Assembly (NCBI GenBank): GCA_002700305.1
Contig: PACZ01000004.1
Location: forward strand, 1 to 64,000
Length of the DNA stretch: 64,000 bases
Reading direction: 5' to 3'
Source: Hyphomonas sp.
GTDB taxonomy: Bacteria; Pseudomonadota; Alphaproteobacteria; Caulobacterales; Hyphomonadaceae
Each line of letters starts with the position of its first letter. The stretch's first letter is position 1. The position numbers were made by a program, and so were the translations under genes. The notes beneath the pieces were generated by a model. That model worked only from the letters and a program-made list of their open reading frames with translations. It ran no database searches and was not told where the DNA came from. Below are positions 14,078-19,831 of the stretch, one piece after another.

Positions 14078-14791
14078 TTATGCCGCCTCTTCGACCTCTT
14101 TGGTCTTCGAGCTCGGGCGCGGATCGCGCAGCACATAGCCACGGCCCCAGACCGTTTCGATATAATGGTTACCGCCGGTGGCCTGCTGAAGCTTCTTGCG
14201 GAGCTTACAGATGAAGACGTCGATAATCTTCAGTTCCGGCTCGTCCATGCCACCATAGAGGTGGTTCAGGAACATTTCCTTGGTCAGTGTCGTGCCCTTC
14301 CGGAGGGAGAGCAGTTCGAACATCTGGTATTCCTTACCGGTGAGGTGCACGCGGTCGCCGTCCACTTCCACCGTCTTCGCGTCGAGGTTCACCAGGATCT
14401 CACCGGTGCGGATCACGCTCTCGGCATGGCCTTTGGAGCGGCGCACAATCGCGGTGATACGGGCGATCAGCTCGTCCTTGTTGAACGGCTTGGTGAGGTA
14501 ATCGTCAGCGCCATAGCCCAGCGTGCGGACTTTCGCCTCGATGTCCGGGTTCCCGGAGAGGATCATGACCGGCGTGTTCACGCGGCCCATGCGCAGCTGT
14601 TTGAGGACGTCATAGCCGGAGATGTCGGGCAGAGACAGATCGAGGATGATCATGTCGTACTCGTAGACCTTGCCCAGATCGACACCTTCTTCACCGAGGT
14701 CTGTGGTGTAGATGTTGAAGCCAGCAGACTTCAGCATCAGCTCGATGGAACGCGCGACGGCGCTATCGTCTTCAATTAGCAGGACGCGCAT
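14078..14791 (-). CDS. ctrA: Cell-cycle response regulator CtrA
   Basis: 237 residues, OmpR-type response regulator and master cell-cycle regulator of Caulobacterales and related orders. Receiver domain: acidic pocket EDD at 7-9, phosphoacceptor Asp51 (ILDLSLPD) and Lys in LTKPFNKDE. The winged-helix domain contains the CtrA hallmarks [31 protein letters not shown] and [11 protein letters not shown]. The protein ends in Glu-Glu-Ala-Ala, in line with the Ala-Ala end that ClpXP uses to degrade Caulobacter CtrA. GANTC sites and TTAAC half-sites lie upstream, as expected for CcrM and CtrA control. ChpT and SciP are encoded in the same window. Confidence 0.97.
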
Positions 14792-14925: not shown

Positions 14926-15768
14926 TTAATTTCCCAACTCCGCCGCCTGAGCATTCCCGATCAGCATTTGGCTGATGGCAATGGCATCCTGGATCGGCTG
15001 AGCCTGAGGATCTGTGGAAATCAGTGTTTTCTGGCAGCGGATCGCATCGCGGACCTTCGGGTCGCGGATCACCACACCAGCGAGATGCGGGCGGAAGCCG
15101 AGGAATGTCTGGCAGGCCCGGGCAATCGCCTCATAAGTCCGTTGTCCGGCAGCACGGCTGTCAGCCTGGTTGATGCAGACCACCGGCTCGACATTCGGCG
15201 CATAGCCCCGCAGCACCTTGATGAAGGCGTAAGCATCGGTCATCGATGTCGGCTCGTCGGTAATCACCATCAGGGCCTTGTCGGCCGCACGGGCAAGCCG
15301 CATGCAGTTCGCCTCGATCCCGGCGCCCAGGTCCACAACGACCTGGTCATATTGCAGGGCCAGCGCGGAGAGGCCGGCAGCAAGGCGGGCAACTTCTTCC
15401 GGCGGCAGTTCGGCCAGCGCACCGGACCCTGACCGTCCCGGCAGCACATCGAATCCGCCATCGGCAGCGCCGCCATCAACCGGCGTAACCGCATCGTCGA
15501 GTTCGACCCAGCCGGCGATCACGGCGGCAAGGTCAGTCTCCGGCGCGATCCCGAGCTGGACATCGACATTGGCGAGGCCAAGGTCACCATCCACCAGCAG
15601 GGTCCGTTTCCCGGCCTGGGCAAAGGCTGAGGCCAGCGTGATGGCCATGAACGTCTTGCCGACGCCGCCCTTCCCGCTCGCAACAGCAATGATCGAGGCA
15701 GGTTCCACCCGCCGCGGTGTAGGCCGCGGTGCCGGACGTTCCTGCGATTTGCGCATCATGAAACTCAT
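14926..15768 (-). CDS. flhG: FlhG-like MinD/ParA family ATPase
   Basis: 280 residues. The deviant Walker A motif KGGVGKT is at 33-39. The A' motif LLVDGDLGLANVD, the switch-like VVVDLGAGIEANC and TDEPTSMTDAYA are typical of FlhG/FleN/YlxH, which with FlhF set flagellar number and place. A basic tail (RKSQERPAPRPTPRR) precedes the ATPase domain. The gene starts four bases after the flhF-like stop and has AAGGAG upstream, so the two are co-transcribed. Unlike its partner, all ATPase motifs look intact. Confidence 0.85.
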   Translation of the reverse strand: MSFMMRKSQERPAPRPTPRRVEPASIIAVASGKGGVGKTFMAITLASAFAQAGKRTLLVDGDLGLANVDVQLGIAPETDLAAVIAGWVELDDAVTPVDGGAADGGFDVLPGRSGSGALAELPPEEVARLAAGLSALALQYDQVVVDLGAGIEANCMRLARAADKALMVITDEPTSMTDAYAFIKVLRGYAPNVEPVVCINQADSRAAGQRTYEAIARACQTFLGFRPHLAGVVIRDPKVRDAIRCQKTLISTDPQAQPIQDAIAISQMLIGNAQAAELGN

Positions 15769-15772
15769 TGGA

Positions 15773-16783
15773 TTACGCGGCTCCTTTCAGGGCGATCACG
15801 TCGCCCGGGGCGTCTTCCATCAACAGGGCGGCAAGGCGCATGGGCGCTGCCGGTACCAGCCCGCCGCCGATAAACGGCGTGACGGCAAGATGTGAGAAGG
15901 CAATGCCGGCCGACGACAGGGCAGATATGGCCCCGCCCCTCCTTCGGACAACATCGAGTTTGGTCAGAATGGCCCGCTTGACGCCAGCCCGGGCAAAACC
16001 GCGGGCCGCTTCCATCTGATCGTCCGGATGGCCTTCTGCTGACATGACCAGAACGGGCTCGGCACGGATGACAGAGATCAGGTCCTGCAGGCTGGCCATG
16101 TCATCATCATCGAACGGGTTGATCGCCGGCAGGTCGATCACGCAGCGGCGGTTTTCTGATTTCAGTGTTTTCAGCGTTGCGAACAGGTTGTCCGGCGAAT
16201 GACAGGTGCGGATCTGGCCCTTTTCCAGTTCCAGATAGGCAGCCAGCTGGTCGCCACCGGCGGTGCCATCGAGGTCAGCCGCCACGGGGGCGACCTCGGC
16301 GCGTGCCATGGCAGCGCGGCGGGTCAGCTTTGCCGCAGTCGCGGTGCGGCCATGCCCAGGCGGGCCGACCAGCACAATGTCGCGATCAAGGCGCGCCGGA
16401 AGCGGATCGCAGGTCACGATACGGGCGAGGCCCTCAGCGATCGCCTCTTCCGGATCGCTCAGCTTCTGAATGCGGCCGGCACCTTCAGCCGCGACGCGGT
16501 CAGCAAAGCGCTTCGGTGCCCCGTGCCAGCTCAGCGCATCGCGCACGCGGCTGTACAAGGGGTTTTCGGTGCCGCGGCCATGTCCGCCACCACGGCTGTC
16601 GCGCAGGAACAGCGGCTCATTCGGCACCATGCCGACGCCGCCCATCTTGTCGACCGCCGCACGCACTTCAACACCACCATCGATTTCGCGCTCGGACAGG
16701 ATCACCGCATCGGCACCCATCTCGGCAAAAATCATCGCCTTGGCAGCCTCGAAGGTCTCGGCGGCGAACATCTTCATACGCAT
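15773..16783 (-). CDS. flhF: FlhF-like SRP-type GTPase with altered nucleotide-binding motifs
   Basis: 336 residues. The N-terminus MRMKMFAAETFEAAKAMIFAEMGADAVILSER is the usual FlhF/SRP-GTPase opening. An NG-like domain begins near residue 110. The P-loop reads G140-PPGHGRT147, with Arg146 where SRP GTPases have the essential Lys. The DTAGR motif is replaced by DLPA (217-220). The G4 motif TKLD (274-277) and the GGAISALSSAGIAF region remain. FlhF normally recruits the MS-ring to the cell pole as a GTP-dependent dimer; GTP hydrolysis is doubtful here. It is upstream of flhG and downstream of fliN, with a 213-base gap to fliN that holds no other gene. AAGGACG precedes the start. Confidence 0.8.
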   Translation of the reverse strand: MRMKMFAAETFEAAKAMIFAEMGADAVILSEREIDGGVEVRAAVDKMGGVGMVPNEPLFLRDSRGGGHGRGTENPLYSRVRDALSWHGAPKRFADRVAAEGAGRIQKLSDPEEAIAEGLARIVTCDPLPARLDRDIVLVGPPGHGRTATAAKLTRRAAMARAEVAPVAADLDGTAGGDQLAAYLELEKGQIRTCHSPDNLFATLKTLKSENRRCVIDLPAINPFDDDDMASLQDLISVIRAEPVLVMSAEGHPDDQMEAARGFARAGVKRAILTKLDVVRRRGGAISALSSAGIAFSHLAVTPFIGGGLVPAAPMRLAALLMEDAPGDVIALKGAA

Positions 16784-16996: not shown

Positions 16997-17263
16997 CTAC
17001 GCGGCTTCGCGCGAGTCGACGATCTCAGACAAGGTGACGCCCAGTTGCCCATCGGCAACAACAAGGCGCCCGCGCGCCATCAGCCGGTCGGACACATAGA
17101 TCTCGACCGGTTCATCCGTCCGCCGCTCCAGCGCGACAACGTCTTCAGGGGCCATGGCGACCAATTCTTCCATCGGCATGCGCACTTCACCCAGCACCAC
17201 GTCCACGCGCACAGGCACATCCATGAGGGTTTTCTGCAGGGCAGGATTGGCAGGCTTGGTCAT
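16997..17263 (-). CDS. fliN: Flagellar motor switch protein FliN
   Basis: 88 residues, SpoA/C-ring domain protein at the distal edge of the flagellar switch, where CheY-P acts and FliH docks. The motifs LMDVPVRVDVVLGEVRMPMEELVAM and VEIYVSDRLMARGRLVVADGQLGVTLSEIV are typical. It is shorter than Caulobacter FliN, with only a short N-terminal arm. The start overlaps the flbE stop by four bases (ATGA). Last gene of the fliF-fliG-flbE-fliN run. Confidence 0.93.
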   Translation of the reverse strand: MTKPANPALQKTLMDVPVRVDVVLGEVRMPMEELVAMAPEDVVALERRTDEPVEIYVSDRLMARGRLVVADGQLGVTLSEIVDSREAA

Positions 17264-17679
17264 GATCCATCCTTCTCGGTCGGAGTGGAGTTCTGGCTGA
17301 ATTCCCGGCTTTGTGCAAACAGGTCTCCCTGTCCGTCCACGATCCGCTGGGCCGTCGCCGTGACGAGGCGCAGGGCCGACTGCCGGAAACCGTCCGAATA
17401 GGCGCTCGTTTCCAGATGCTGGGCCAGAGATACAAGATTCGCCAGCGCCTCAGTCAGGTTCTCTGTCAGCTGCTTCAGGCGTGCAGCCTGTTCGTCATGC
17501 TTCAGTGACATGGCCGCGGCATGCGCCTCGGCCCGCGCTTCGGTCAGCAGCATGGCCAGGTCCGGCGCGGAGAGTGTGATCTTTTCCTCAACCGGCGGTG
17601 CGAACACTTCTGGCTCGGGCTGCGGGTTGAAGTCGCTGCGAAAATCAAACGGTTGAAGGGATTTGACGGCCCGCTGCAT
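17260..17679 (-). CDS. flbE: FliH-like flagellar assembly protein (FlbE)
   Basis: 139 residues. It stands in the position of Caulobacter flbE, the FliH homologue, between fliG and fliN. FliH links the export ATPase FliI to the C-ring and the gate. An acidic, proline-rich N-terminus is followed by a long helical part with alanine-rich and charged repeats (LLTEARAEAHAAAMSLKHDEQAARLKQLTENLTEAL), consistent with the FliH coiled coil. The sequence alone is weakly diagnostic; position and ATGA overlaps with both neighbours carry the call. It is shorter than most FliH proteins (about 200-230 residues). Confidence 0.75.
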   Translation of the reverse strand: MQRAVKSLQPFDFRSDFNPQPEPEVFAPPVEEKITLSAPDLAMLLTEARAEAHAAAMSLKHDEQAARLKQLTENLTEALANLVSLAQHLETSAYSDGFRQSALRLVTATAQRIVDGQGDLFAQSREFSQNSTPTEKDGS

Positions 17680-18611
17680 CAGTCGACCAGCTCATCATCT
17701 TCGACCTGGCCATCGGCCCGGATGTCACCGCGCTGCTTAAGCGTGCGGGCGAGCTCGACCAGTTCCTGCCGGGCGGTTTCGATCTCGCTGCGGCGGATCG
17801 GGCCAAGTGAGGCGATCTCTTCGCGCAGCAGGTCGCCTGCGCGCTGGGTCATGTTTGCAAAGAAGACAGCAGACGTATCCGGGCGCGCGCCTTTCAGGGC
17901 CACAACGAGTACCGCACGATCGGCCGCCGACAGCAGGGTCTGCAGCCCCGCCGCATCGAGACCAGACAGATCGTCGAAAGTGAACATCAGCGCGCGCACC
18001 TTCTCGCCAGCCCCCGGTTCGGCATGGTCGAGCGCGGCAAGGAAAGTCTTTTCGGACCGGCTGTCGAGACGGTCGAAGATACGGGCAACACGTTCATGCC
18101 CGTTTGCCTGCCCCCCACCCGCATGCGCGGACAGGATTGCTTCAAGCCGGGTTTCGAACGCGGACAGGGCCGCCGGATGAACCGGGCCGAGATTGAGAAG
18201 CCGCTGCATGGCATCGATCGCCAGCCGCGGCGGCAACGCCCGCAACAGGCGCGCAGATGTCTCACCTGGCAGGCGCGACAGGACCAGCGCCACGGTCTGG
18301 GCATGCTCATCCGAAAACAGGCCAGCCAGCGTCTCCGTTCCGGCATCTGCCAGACGCCGCCAGACCGATGCACCGGACTCGGCCGGCTGGCGCAGGCGGC
18401 GGTGCGCTTCCATGAACTGCGAAACCGCCTCGGTTTCACCCTCCGGCGACGGGCCGAGCGTGTCCATGGCGGCGGTCAGCGCCTGAACTTCGGATTTGGA
18501 GAGTTCCGCCCAGATCGGCGCAGCATCCGGGCCAAGGGCCCGCATCAGGCGTGCAGACCGCATCAGACCATCGGCTGGCGTCTCGCCCCGGGTGATTGCC
18601 AGCGCGCTCAT
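17679..18611 (-). CDS. fliG: Flagellar motor switch protein FliG
   Basis: 310 residues, C-ring protein that binds FliF through its N-domain and faces the stators with its C-domain. The middle-domain EHPQ motif reads E102-H-A-Q105 (Pro to Ala). The C-domain is well kept: LMFTFDDLSGLD, ALKGARP, MTQRAGDLLREEIASLGPIRRSEIE. The charged torque residues of E. coli FliG (Lys in LKGA, Arg in QRA, two acids in REE, Arg in IRR) all have counterparts. This suggests a working motor. It overlaps fliF (18608-18611) and flbE by ATGA junctions. Confidence 0.93.
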   Translation of the reverse strand: MSALAITRGETPADGLMRSARLMRALGPDAAPIWAELSKSEVQALTAAMDTLGPSPEGETEAVSQFMEAHRRLRQPAESGASVWRRLADAGTETLAGLFSDEHAQTVALVLSRLPGETSARLLRALPPRLAIDAMQRLLNLGPVHPAALSAFETRLEAILSAHAGGGQANGHERVARIFDRLDSRSEKTFLAALDHAEPGAGEKVRALMFTFDDLSGLDAAGLQTLLSAADRAVLVVALKGARPDTSAVFFANMTQRAGDLLREEIASLGPIRRSEIETARQELVELARTLKQRGDIRADGQVEDDELVD

Positions 18612-19270
18612 GCATTGCCTCCATTGCCGCTCATCCAGGCGCGGACCACGTGGGCGGCACGGCCGGGATCCCGGCGGGCAAGGTCGGCGGCGTCTTCGTC
18701 ACGTATCGGCGCGGAGCGAACGGCCGGTTCAGCAGATTGCGCGGGCATGCGTGCAGGCAACGTTTCCTGCATCAGCTCGACCGGCGCCTCTTCCCGGCGG
18801 TCGGACCTGACCCCGATCCAGCCGGAAAGTCCGGCCAGCAAGGCCAGCAGAGACAGCTCGGCCCAGTCGCGCGGCAATGGCGCGCTGCTCACACCAGGCG
18901 CAAAGGCGGCACGCTGGAGGTCCACGCGCTCGCCCTTGGCAGCATCGAGTCCGGCAGCGAGGGCAATAGTATTTGAGAGCGCCGCCTCGTCTACGCCGGC
19001 GCTGGCATCCACCAGCAACAAGACCTGACGGACGCCGCCCGGCTGGCGCACAAGGGAAATGCGGACATGCCCCTGCCCCGCCATGGCTTCGGCCACGGAG
19101 AGAAGAGAGGCTTCAGACTGGGAGAGCGGACCGGGCGAGGCTGGCGCGCGGCTCATCACCTCGCTGCCGCGCCAGGCAAGCAGGCCGAGGGCCACCGCGC
19201 ATGCCGCGAACGCGAGCGCCCGTGTGGAAGGCGTCGCGCCGCGCGAAATACCGGTTGCTACGTGCGCCAT
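18608..19270 (-). CDS. fliF: Strongly shortened FliF (MS-ring) protein
   Basis: 220 residues in the fliF position; typical FliF has about 530-560. One membrane segment lies at about 17-33 and a second at about 138-154. Between them residues 50-124 resemble the RBM3 core of FliF (LL.VAEAMAGQGHVRISLV, then QVLLLVDASAGVDEAALSNTIALAAGLDAAKGERVDL). The cytoplasmic end 199-220 (DPGRAAHVVRAWM) resembles the FliG-binding tail. RBM1, RBM2 and the beta-collar insertion are missing. The frame is clean, the ATGA coupling to fliG is intact and no FliF remnant lies upstream, so a sequencing frameshift is unlikely. A CtrA-box-like site lies 60 bases upstream. Confidence 0.78.
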   Translation of the reverse strand: MAHVATGISRGATPSTRALAFAACAVALGLLAWRGSEVMSRAPASPGPLSQSEASLLSVAEAMAGQGHVRISLVRQPGGVRQVLLLVDASAGVDEAALSNTIALAAGLDAAKGERVDLQRAAFAPGVSSAPLPRDWAELSLLALLAGLSGWIGVRSDRREEAPVELMQETLPARMPAQSAEPAVRSAPIRDEDAADLARRDPGRAAHVVRAWMSGNGGNA

Positions 19271-19329: not shown

Positions 19330-19345
19330 GTAAATTTGGGTTTAA
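19330..19345 (-). promoter_or_regulatory. Candidate CtrA-binding site of the fliF operon
   Basis: On the minus strand the sequence reads TTAA-ACCCAAA-TTTAC, against the CtrA consensus TTAA-N7-TTAAC (one mismatch). It lies 60-75 bases in front of the fliF start. CtrA activates the fliF operon in Caulobacter and SciP, encoded directly upstream here, antagonises such promoters. Confidence 0.6.
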
Positions 19346-19352
19346 CAGCGGC

Positions 19353-19625
19353 CTAGCGGCGATACTGTTGCAGGCGGGTCGTGCGCAGGCCTTTGGTGCC
19401 GTGACGCAGGTAGAGACGCTCCCAGCCTTCGAACTCTTCATCCGTCAGATTGTAACGGTCGCAGGCGGCCTTGCGGCTCAGCAGGCCACCGGCAACGGCG
19501 GCAACCACTTCAGCCTTGCGGCGCGTGACCCAACGGGAAATGTTCGGCGACGGGAGATCCGCCATGGTGAGCTTCTGGCCATCCGGGCCTTTCACGCTCG
19601 TCGGTTTTGCATTCTGCTGTTCCAT
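19353..19625 (-). CDS. sciP: CtrA inhibitor SciP (DUF1153)
   Basis: 90 residues. SciP binds DNA/CtrA and blocks recruitment of RNA polymerase at CtrA-activated promoters early in the cell cycle. The whole conserved core is present: VKGPDGQKLTMADLP, SRWVTRRKAEVVAAVAGGLLSRKAACDRYNLTDEEFEGW and KGLRTTRLQQYR. ATG 19625 is preferred; a TTG at 19643 is in frame. It sits next to fliF on the same strand, as in Caulobacter, where sciP lies close to fliF. An inverted repeat GTAAC-CC-GTTAC lies at 19712-19723 upstream. Confidence 0.95.
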   Translation of the reverse strand: MEQQNAKPTSVKGPDGQKLTMADLPSPNISRWVTRRKAEVVAAVAGGLLSRKAACDRYNLTDEEFEGWERLYLRHGTKGLRTTRLQQYRR

Positions 19626-19831
19626 ATCCACACCATCTTCCAATAGAGGGCAGGCACTCCTTCTGGAGAGCCCGGAATATGGACACTACGCGCTTCCCCT
19701 TAAGCCCACGCGTAACCCGTTACGAGACTTTGCGGCTGGGCATTAGGAGGATGTTTGGAAAACTGTTCCGCCCCGGCACACCGGGCGAGACTCTGCAGGA
19801 AACATTACACGATTGAGAAAAATCTGCGGCG

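Follow-up and report, generated by a model that had tools for sequence, protein, structure and literature searches.

The stretch of DNA analyzed here (the window) comprises 64,000 nucleotides of Hyphomonas sp., positions 1 to 64,000 of the forward strand of contig PACZ01000004.1 (assembly GCA_002700305.1), and carries on its minus strand, at 18608..19270, a short gene in the slot of fliF, the gene of the flagellar MS-ring protein. At the gene level a cut FliF, FliG, a cut FliH and FliN are kept in this slot, a FliM-like protein, MotA and MotB are encoded elsewhere in the genome, and the set is under purifying selection. Such a set very probably represents a conserved rotor-plus-stator unit with a non-swimming function, and the short FliF is likely to anchor a reduced flagellar motor without a filament in the membrane. 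Genomes, contigs, loci and genera are referred to by our own numbers (G, C, L and g, respectively) where they have to be told apart.

The short fliF starts with an ATG at 19270, its stop codon ends at 18608 and the product has 220 amino acids (aa). An ATGA overlap joins its 3' end to the start of fliG (17679-18611). Of the 30 copies compared, counting that of the window, 29 are intact and encode 219-226 aa, and their open frame extends only 0-201 nt further upstream of the start, so there is no hidden longer frame. Whole copies in relatives, together with these short upstream frames, rule out a base-call error, while the ratios of nonsynonymous to synonymous substitution rates (dN/dS) given below rule out a pseudogene. 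A structure model built with 29 homologs, of moderate confidence (pLDDT 71, pTM 0.41), predicts a first membrane helix at residues 16-40 (19151..19225), an RBM-like fold of helices and strands at residues 51-121 (18908..19120), a second membrane helix at residues 133-160 (18791..18874), a low-confidence linker and two small C-terminal helices at residues 192-213 (18632..18697), all on the minus strand. Residues 51-121, which Foldseek and hhalign also mark as an RBM3-like ring-building domain, contain no long insertion, meaning that the beta-collar is absent; the second helix is likewise covered by the hhalign comparison, and the tail holds the motif RDPxRAAxVVRxWM, recognized by eye. A previous reading of the window from its letters alone (the sequence-only reading) had proposed just this layout, of two membrane helices, an RBM3-like part without collar and a FliG-binding-like tail, and the proposal was borne out at these positions, on the minus strand. 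Its claim that the gene is kept, in a clean frame coupled to fliG, is likewise upheld by the 29 of 30 copies that are whole and by the constraint on the gene. The short fliF of H. oceanitis SCH89 (L028, L063) has a frameshift, located between residues 157 and 171, for which both sequencing error and decay are possible; L028 was left out of the alignment of the short FliF (hence 29 of 30 copies) and of the selection test.

No family model recognizes the short protein when it is searched singly, as there were zero matches in Pfam and NCBIfam up to an E value of 1. PF01514 (RBM1/RBM2) does not match it, the sole PF01514 match of the genome lying elsewhere, and PF08345 is touched by only six of the 29 homologs (best E 0.063), which counts against FliF homology. 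In contrast, comparison of profiles with hhalign against full-length FliFs from sister genera and families (16 sequences) gave 95% and an E value of 3.6e-8 (for one comparison) over residues 65-159, a match that takes in a portion of RBM3 plus the second membrane helix, while the control alignments of FliG, FliM, FliH and MotA reached only 0.1-0.9%. A search for FliF domains, which the sequence-only reading had put forward as a check, failed with the single protein and succeeded with profile against profile. A wider 17-row profile matches full-length FliFs weakly at 28 places (E 1e-5 to 1e-3, with E 2e-4 for the one in the genome of the window), in 25 of them over its second half. The top Foldseek match in the PDB is 6sd1, the RBM3/collar of Salmonella FliF, with a probability of 1.00 but an E value of 0.04; no match reaches E 0.001, and unrelated proteins of lower probability have similar E values. 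When the profile was compared with PDB sequences, FliF (6scn) came second with a match reaching the tail (E 0.042), behind an entry named TMH4C4 (E 0.0028). The tail motif is conserved in the short-FliF family and by eye is like HPDES..IIRxWL, with which most full-length FliFs end. Judged from these comparisons, the short protein is a FliF reduced to an RBM3-like domain and a FliG-binding-like tail, without a trace of RBM1 and RBM2. We also considered whether the short FliF corresponds to the "hat" complex imaged by cryo-electron tomography in H. neptunium among others, and rejected this because in passages of PMC9380563 a mutant of H. pylori leads to the conclusion that the hat is something other than FliF.

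Gene order gives the origin of the short gene. Thirty named loci that carry the short gene, many of these records being Hyphomonas, were compared with 16 sister stretches, each of which surrounds a full-length FliF of a sister genus or family. In the sister stretches sciP precedes the full-length fliF in 15 of 16, fliG and fliN follow in all 16, and a FliH-like open reading frame (ORF) of 207-224 aa lies between them in 14 (the FliH picks in L075 and L079 are wrong and carry no weight). All 30 short-gene loci have the order sciP, short fliF, fliG, fliH-like gene, fliN, so that the short gene stands in the sciP-[fliF]-fliG-fliH-fliN slot and is an ortholog of fliF by gene order. On the same grounds it takes the place that full-length fliF has in the sister genera, and no genome checked, by score class and by gene order where the locus was fetched, has the short form together with a sister-type full-length FliF. 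In a tree of FliG proteins the 13 reduced FliGs form one clade (100/100) which adjoins 12 sister-type FliGs; the single row from the second flagellar system described below sits on a branch of 10, too long to weigh. Some records titled Acidobacteria or Candidatus Sulfopaludibacter (L061, L068, L070, L071) have the Hyphomonas type of gene order and are probably misnamed bins; two of them, L061 and L070, fall together with a Hyphomonas row when FliG trees are compared with these titles.

The same genome (3.52 Mb in 56 contigs, 99.9% complete) contains PF01514 only once, on contig C6, outside the window. There a full-length FliF of 503 aa, with both PF01514 and PF08345, is surrounded by FliP (the only one of the genome), FlhA, FlhB, FliR, FliI, FlgB and FlgC, and the cluster also holds FliG, FliN, rod and hook genes, MotA and MotB, as well as ORFs that by eye resemble FliL, FliH, FlgI, FlgK and FlgE. 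The short gene is therefore neither the sole FliF of the genome nor the base of the organism's only flagellum, and the organism's flagellum need not be built on it; a second full-length FliF in the genome is what the sequence-only reading had itself named as a refutation, and the role it proposed does not hold. The related idea of an S-ring-like motor base lacking the M-ring domains around the export gate survives in part: the sequence fits such a base, but the motor in question seems to have no export gate at all. Flagellar ORFs on C6 (L038, L039) have a third-position GC content of about 0.58-0.76, versus mostly 0.71-0.87 at the fetched loci on C11 and C14, which is compatible with lateral acquisition of the C6 cluster.

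A search with the single protein found the short FliF in 48 of 101 genomes (the genome of the window included), eight of the 101 lacking PF01514. With the profile, the short form was found in 73 of 105 genomes of the family (41 of genus g1, 26 of g4, three of g8, two of g2 and one of g9), in answer to the proposal of the sequence-only reading that related genomes be searched for it. The count leaves out G053, which matched only through its full-length FliF of 624 aa (raw count 74), and retains G125 (a partial match, E 2.8e-7) and G048 (at a contig edge). Listed misses are one genome of g1, three of g4, one of g2 and 15 in five other genera, with 11 more misses of unlisted genus. A plasmid search gave no match. 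In a panel of 22 genomes, all 17 carriers have the FliM-like gene and a weaker-scoring type of MotA and MotB, which is a second pair in 12 of them and the only pair in five; of the non-carriers three have one MotA and one MotB and two have none.

The reduced rotor and stator genes are spread over four loci. A FliM-like gene of 359 aa adjoins dksA on C14, and the two are neighbors in all five carriers examined, while in G042, the only sister genome with dksA in view, flgH, flgA, flgG, flgF, fliL and one more ORF lie between dksA and fliM. Neither these flg genes and fliL nor flhA were found at the carrier loci examined. A sequence profile of the FliM-like gene placed FliM first among PDB entries, with an E value of only 0.14; its predicted structure (17 homologs, pLDDT 68, pTM 0.49) matches solved chains of FliM and the C-ring with E 1.8e-12 and a target TM of up to 0.73, for FliM middle-domain chains. 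The reduced MotB on C11 has 228 aa (305 in G042) and the same kinds of neighbors as motB of G042, and the second MotA, of 301 aa, lies on C16. More generally, motB of G000, G018 and G058 and motA of G018 sit in the neighborhoods of the single motB and motA of G042, the G018 MotA counterpart sharing its neighbors on one side with G042 and on the other with the genome of the window; the family links in the gene order of motA and motB include overlapping antisense frames, so their count is overstated. In Pfam the two reduced MotBs scanned have the peptidoglycan-binding OmpA domain and an N-terminus of the plug family, and two MotAs show MotA domains. Extra FliN-like genes with frames of 98-101 aa occur in sister genera (for example G042:C11:8561, G049:C1:920721, G054:C1:646858) and may encode FssF, a surface-sensing protein of the C-ring; no Hyphomonas genome of the panel has more than two matches of FliN size or more than two of FliM size.

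The genes of the reduced set are constrained. The dN/dS of the short FliF is 0.09-0.24 in 15 pairs and that of MotA 0.02-0.12 in four pairs. For G050 versus G056, both of genus g2, it is 0.19 for FliF, 0.14 for FliG, 0.13 for FliH, 0.05 for FliN, 0.08 for FliM, 0.04 for MotA and 0.14 for MotB, at dS of 0.8-2.0, and for G018 versus G022 the six genes compared (FliH not included) give 0.12-0.32. Passages of PMC7564593 describe the pairing of Arg90 and Glu98 of MotA with Asp289 and Arg281 of FliG. The reduced MotAs have R or K at the R90-like and E at the E98-like position in 15 of 15 rows, the reduced FliGs have the K264-like residue, the R281-like residue and E at the 289-like position in 13 of 13 rows each, with R or K at 297 also in 13 of 13, and the channel Asp of MotB is kept in 10 of 10 (MotB of the sister locus L139 falls outside the motif comparison). 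The downstream FliG thus does keep its torque residues at 264, 281 and 289, as had been read from the window.

In five carriers from three genera (G018, G022, G058, G050 and G056) full-length FliF, FliP and the rod/hook family were not found, FlhA, FlhB, FliI and flagellin not having been searched there, and the same five keep the short FliF, FliG, FliN, the FliM-like gene, MotA and MotB. Their completeness is 99% for G018 and G058, 93% for G022, 88% for G056 and 86% for G050. Genus g2 is the strongest case, as FliF, FliP and rod genes are absent from the searches of all three of its genomes. In G041 (97% complete; L188) short FliF, FliG, FliH, MotA, MotB, full-length FliF, FliP and rod genes were not detected; what remains in its slot is a FliN-like gene alone, flanked by sciP and by a gene that by eye is mutM-like.

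According to passages of PMC8092281, the export gate lies inside the MS-ring, whose inner M-ring consists of RBM1 and RBM2. Each reduced protein appears to have lost the part that would face a missing partner, i.e. RBM1, RBM2 and the collar in FliF and the C-terminal domain in FliH, while FliF keeps its FliG-type tail and FliG its torque domain. The short FliF would form an S-ring-like ring in the membrane, its tail would hold a C-ring of FliG, FliM and FliN, and MotA/MotB stators anchored in the cell wall would engage FliG and push it by means of proton flow; on the whole we lean towards a reduced motor that assembles and generates torque. With nothing to turn outside, the output would probably be a signal, in which stator engagement and proton flux might inform the control of adhesion and c-di-GMP about load, about contact with a surface or about the proton motive force. 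Passages of PMC7885107 and PMC11580411 describe a mechanical adhesion pathway in Caulobacter that needs MotAB, DgcB and the inner-membrane rotor assembly, fails with MotB D33N and still acts in late mutants without hook or filament. The rotor and stator components that this pathway requires are the ones retained in the reduced set. By analogy, sensing of surface or load could be the main role, which is a speculative assignment. We propose more tentatively than the motor itself, but with less reserve than this role, that a natural rotary motor without secretion system or filament, made of inner-membrane rotor and stator, has been retained by Hyphomonas and related genera, where it would act as a sensor or actuator based on torque, and that its FliF ring could dispense with the M-ring domains once the export gate was gone. 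If true, evolution can uncouple the flagellar motor from both swimming and protein export, and the seven genes would offer a natural minimal rotor-stator set for reconstitution.

Several observations weigh against such a motor. Besides the limited set of families searched in the five carriers, the completeness of these genomes ranges from 86 to 99%, and there are several metagenome bins among the named relatives. Since the second system forms one cluster in the genome of the window, the absence of FliF, FliP and rod/hook genes amounts to one event per genome, which one assembly gap could explain. G001 lacks FliF and FliP, keeps rod genes, is 84% complete and was not counted among the five; because it is a close sister of G022 in the MotA tree, G022 is the weakest case and may be an assembly gap. 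On contig C199 of G055 two separate frames each hold a part of the FliG_C match, and there, too, sequencing error and decay are both possible, to which the frameshifted short fliF of one species, H. oceanitis (L028/L063), has to be added. The middle domain of the FliM-like protein is not detected by Pfam and is seen by fold only. In the MotA tree the reduced MotAs are not placed with their counterparts from the sister genera, and the argument for MotA and MotB relies on gene order. Position 288 of FliG is acidic in 11 of 13 rows and not acidic in the other two. Finally, the short FliF is the fastest or second-fastest evolving part of the set, with 56-59% identity and dN/dS of 0.19 and 0.27 in two distant pairs.

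The neighbors of the short fliF in the window, all on the minus strand, bear on its possible roles. The conserved slot begins with sciP (19353..19643), encoding an inhibitor of CtrA of 96 aa (NF051866 equivalog, above cut-off). Between the two genes, 75 nt upstream of the short fliF, a sequence match revealed TTAA-N7-TTTA (19331..19345), a CtrA-box-like element that we treat as a candidate site, taking TTAA-N7-TTAA as the consensus of the CtrA box. The consensus with no or one mismatch occurs in 30 of 30 upstream regions (exactly in five), mostly at -74 to -80, versus 119 of 3000 windows drawn at random from these loci, the 30 sequences being related to each other. The element suggests, as a candidate, a fit with cell-cycle timing. 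FliG (17679..18611; 310 aa) has the domains FliG_N, FliG_M and FliG_C and is shortened between the N and M domains. It is followed by a fliH-like gene (17260..17679; 139 aa), whose product lacks the C-terminal domain of full-length FliH, the domain that binds FliI, and by fliN (16997..17263; 88 aa). In the reduced rows aligned, FliH has 120-139 aa versus 207-224 aa in the sister stretches, with the N-terminus kept. Although the preceding domain is lost, Q-x-[DNE]-L-F is found at the C-terminus of FliH in 11 of 11 reduced rows; nine of the 16 sister rows, a set that includes two wrong picks, have Q-x-[DNE]-[LI]-F, and the motif resembles what we take to be the sliding-clamp-binding motif, QL[SD]LF. 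Further downstream lie a flhF-like gene (15773..16783; 336 aa), in which the Walker A lysine is replaced by arginine, a flhG-like gene for a MinD-type ATPase (14926..15768; 280 aa, with Walker A KGGVGKT as read in the translation) and ctrA (14078..14791; NF045991 equivalog), a neighbor that ends the run and for which no part in the motor is claimed. In the sister stretch L076, the one checked, fliN is followed by a sigma-54 activator (presumably the position of flbD, to use the Caulobacter name) and FlhA and only then by flhF and flhG, whereas in the window flhF comes directly after fliN, with neither activator nor flhA in between. flhF and flhG follow fliN in 17 of the 30 named loci and have no match in the remaining 13, where some contigs end early; the run is complete as far as ctrA in three stretches of genus g4, and the g8 stretch has neither flhF nor flhG. 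The FlhF Walker A reads GPPGHGRT in the window and in all seven reduced-type copies aligned (L045, L049, L050, L051, L055, L091, L094), while eight of eight sister FlhFs keep GKT, so in the reduced operon the GTPase FlhF may have become a binding protein.

FlhF and FlhG place polar flagella, and their genes after fliN in 17 of the named loci and in the three g4 stretches, together with the full-length FliF of a second flagellum in most carriers, could mean that the reduced rotor proteins serve this second flagellum, whether by supplying extra subunits for its ring, by offering it a docking site at the pole or by forming, with FlhF and FlhG, a system for its placement. We consider such a service rather improbable: full-length FliF, FliP and rod/hook genes went undetected in five carriers, of which two pairs are constrained all the same, the Walker A lysine of FlhF is an arginine in all seven reduced-type copies aligned, 13 of 30 loci (including contigs that end early) have no flhF/flhG match, and a distinct MotA/MotB pair would be superfluous. 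Functionless remnants of an ancestral flagellum are less probable still. FliF, FliH, FliG, FliN and MotB are indeed shorter than in the sister genera, one species has a frameshift and the slot of G041 is down to a FliN-like gene; decay does not account, on the other hand, for dN/dS of 0.04-0.32 at dS of about 0.8-2 in two distant pairs, for a gene kept in 73 of 105 family genomes along with separate loci retained together, for the intact torque and channel residues, or for the single clade in the FliG tree.

Two further explanations share the rotor with the filament-less motor and differ in what it does. The first is a scaffold or landmark of FliF, FliG, FliN and FliH at the pole that does not rotate and serves, for example, cell polarity, budding or growth of the prostheca. 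Hyphomonas buds from its prostheca, and the CtrA-box-like element with sciP and ctrA as neighbors suggests cell-cycle timing, yet stators with the channel Asp, the peptidoglycan-binding domain and the rotor-facing charges have been kept, which a passive scaffold would not need, and we regard a scaffold as unlikely. The second, likewise improbable, has the stators act through the reduced rotor on something in the periplasm or on the cell surface, which they would drive or shear, so that the output would be work and not a signal. MotAB-like gliding motors are comparable in spirit, and the torque residues and the wall anchor of MotB would suit such a role, but there is no candidate for a load, rod and hook genes were not found in five carriers, and no conserved extra gene was recognized beside the set in the stretches read.

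Titles and abstracts of the literature searched, a scope outside which subscription papers and most preprints lie, describe no short FliF or filament-less motor of Hyphomonas, which is not proof of novelty, and the main text of PMC12700997, on Caulobacterales, contains no fliF, fliG or motA. Compared with FliF as known (TIGR00206; PF01514 with PF08345), the short form has in common two membrane helices, the RBM3-type fold, a C-terminal motif that by eye is FliG-binding-like and the slot between sciP and fliG; it differs in the absence of RBM1, RBM2 and the collar, in its size of 220 aa against 540-604 aa in the 16 sister FliFs, and in that alone it is recognized by no family model. SpoIIIAG, which forms a sporulation ring on an RBM3-type domain, is not known to have a FliG tail. 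It shares with the short FliF the idea of an RBM3-type ring, as put in passages of PMC8092281; among the 50 Foldseek rows listed none is named SpoIIIAG, and SpoIIIAG was not compared directly. A survey of rotor genes without filament genes reports that 11% of non-motile species have at least one of them, whereas in our case the whole rotor and stator set is present, accompanied by evidence from gene order and selection. With the flagellar rotor and stator, the reduced set of genes shares FliF, FliG, FliM, FliN, MotA and MotB together with the torque-coupling charges and the channel Asp, and it differs in that no export-gate, rod, ring or hook genes lie at the examined loci and several parts are shortened. 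A parallel in these minimal parts is offered by the Caulobacter mutants described in passages of the papers cited above, which lack the hook and are complete in the rotor (delta-flgH, with signaling through MotAB and DgcB). There a laboratory mutant of a full flagellum is concerned, while in Hyphomonas and its relatives rotor and stator without hook and filament would be the natural state over several genera.

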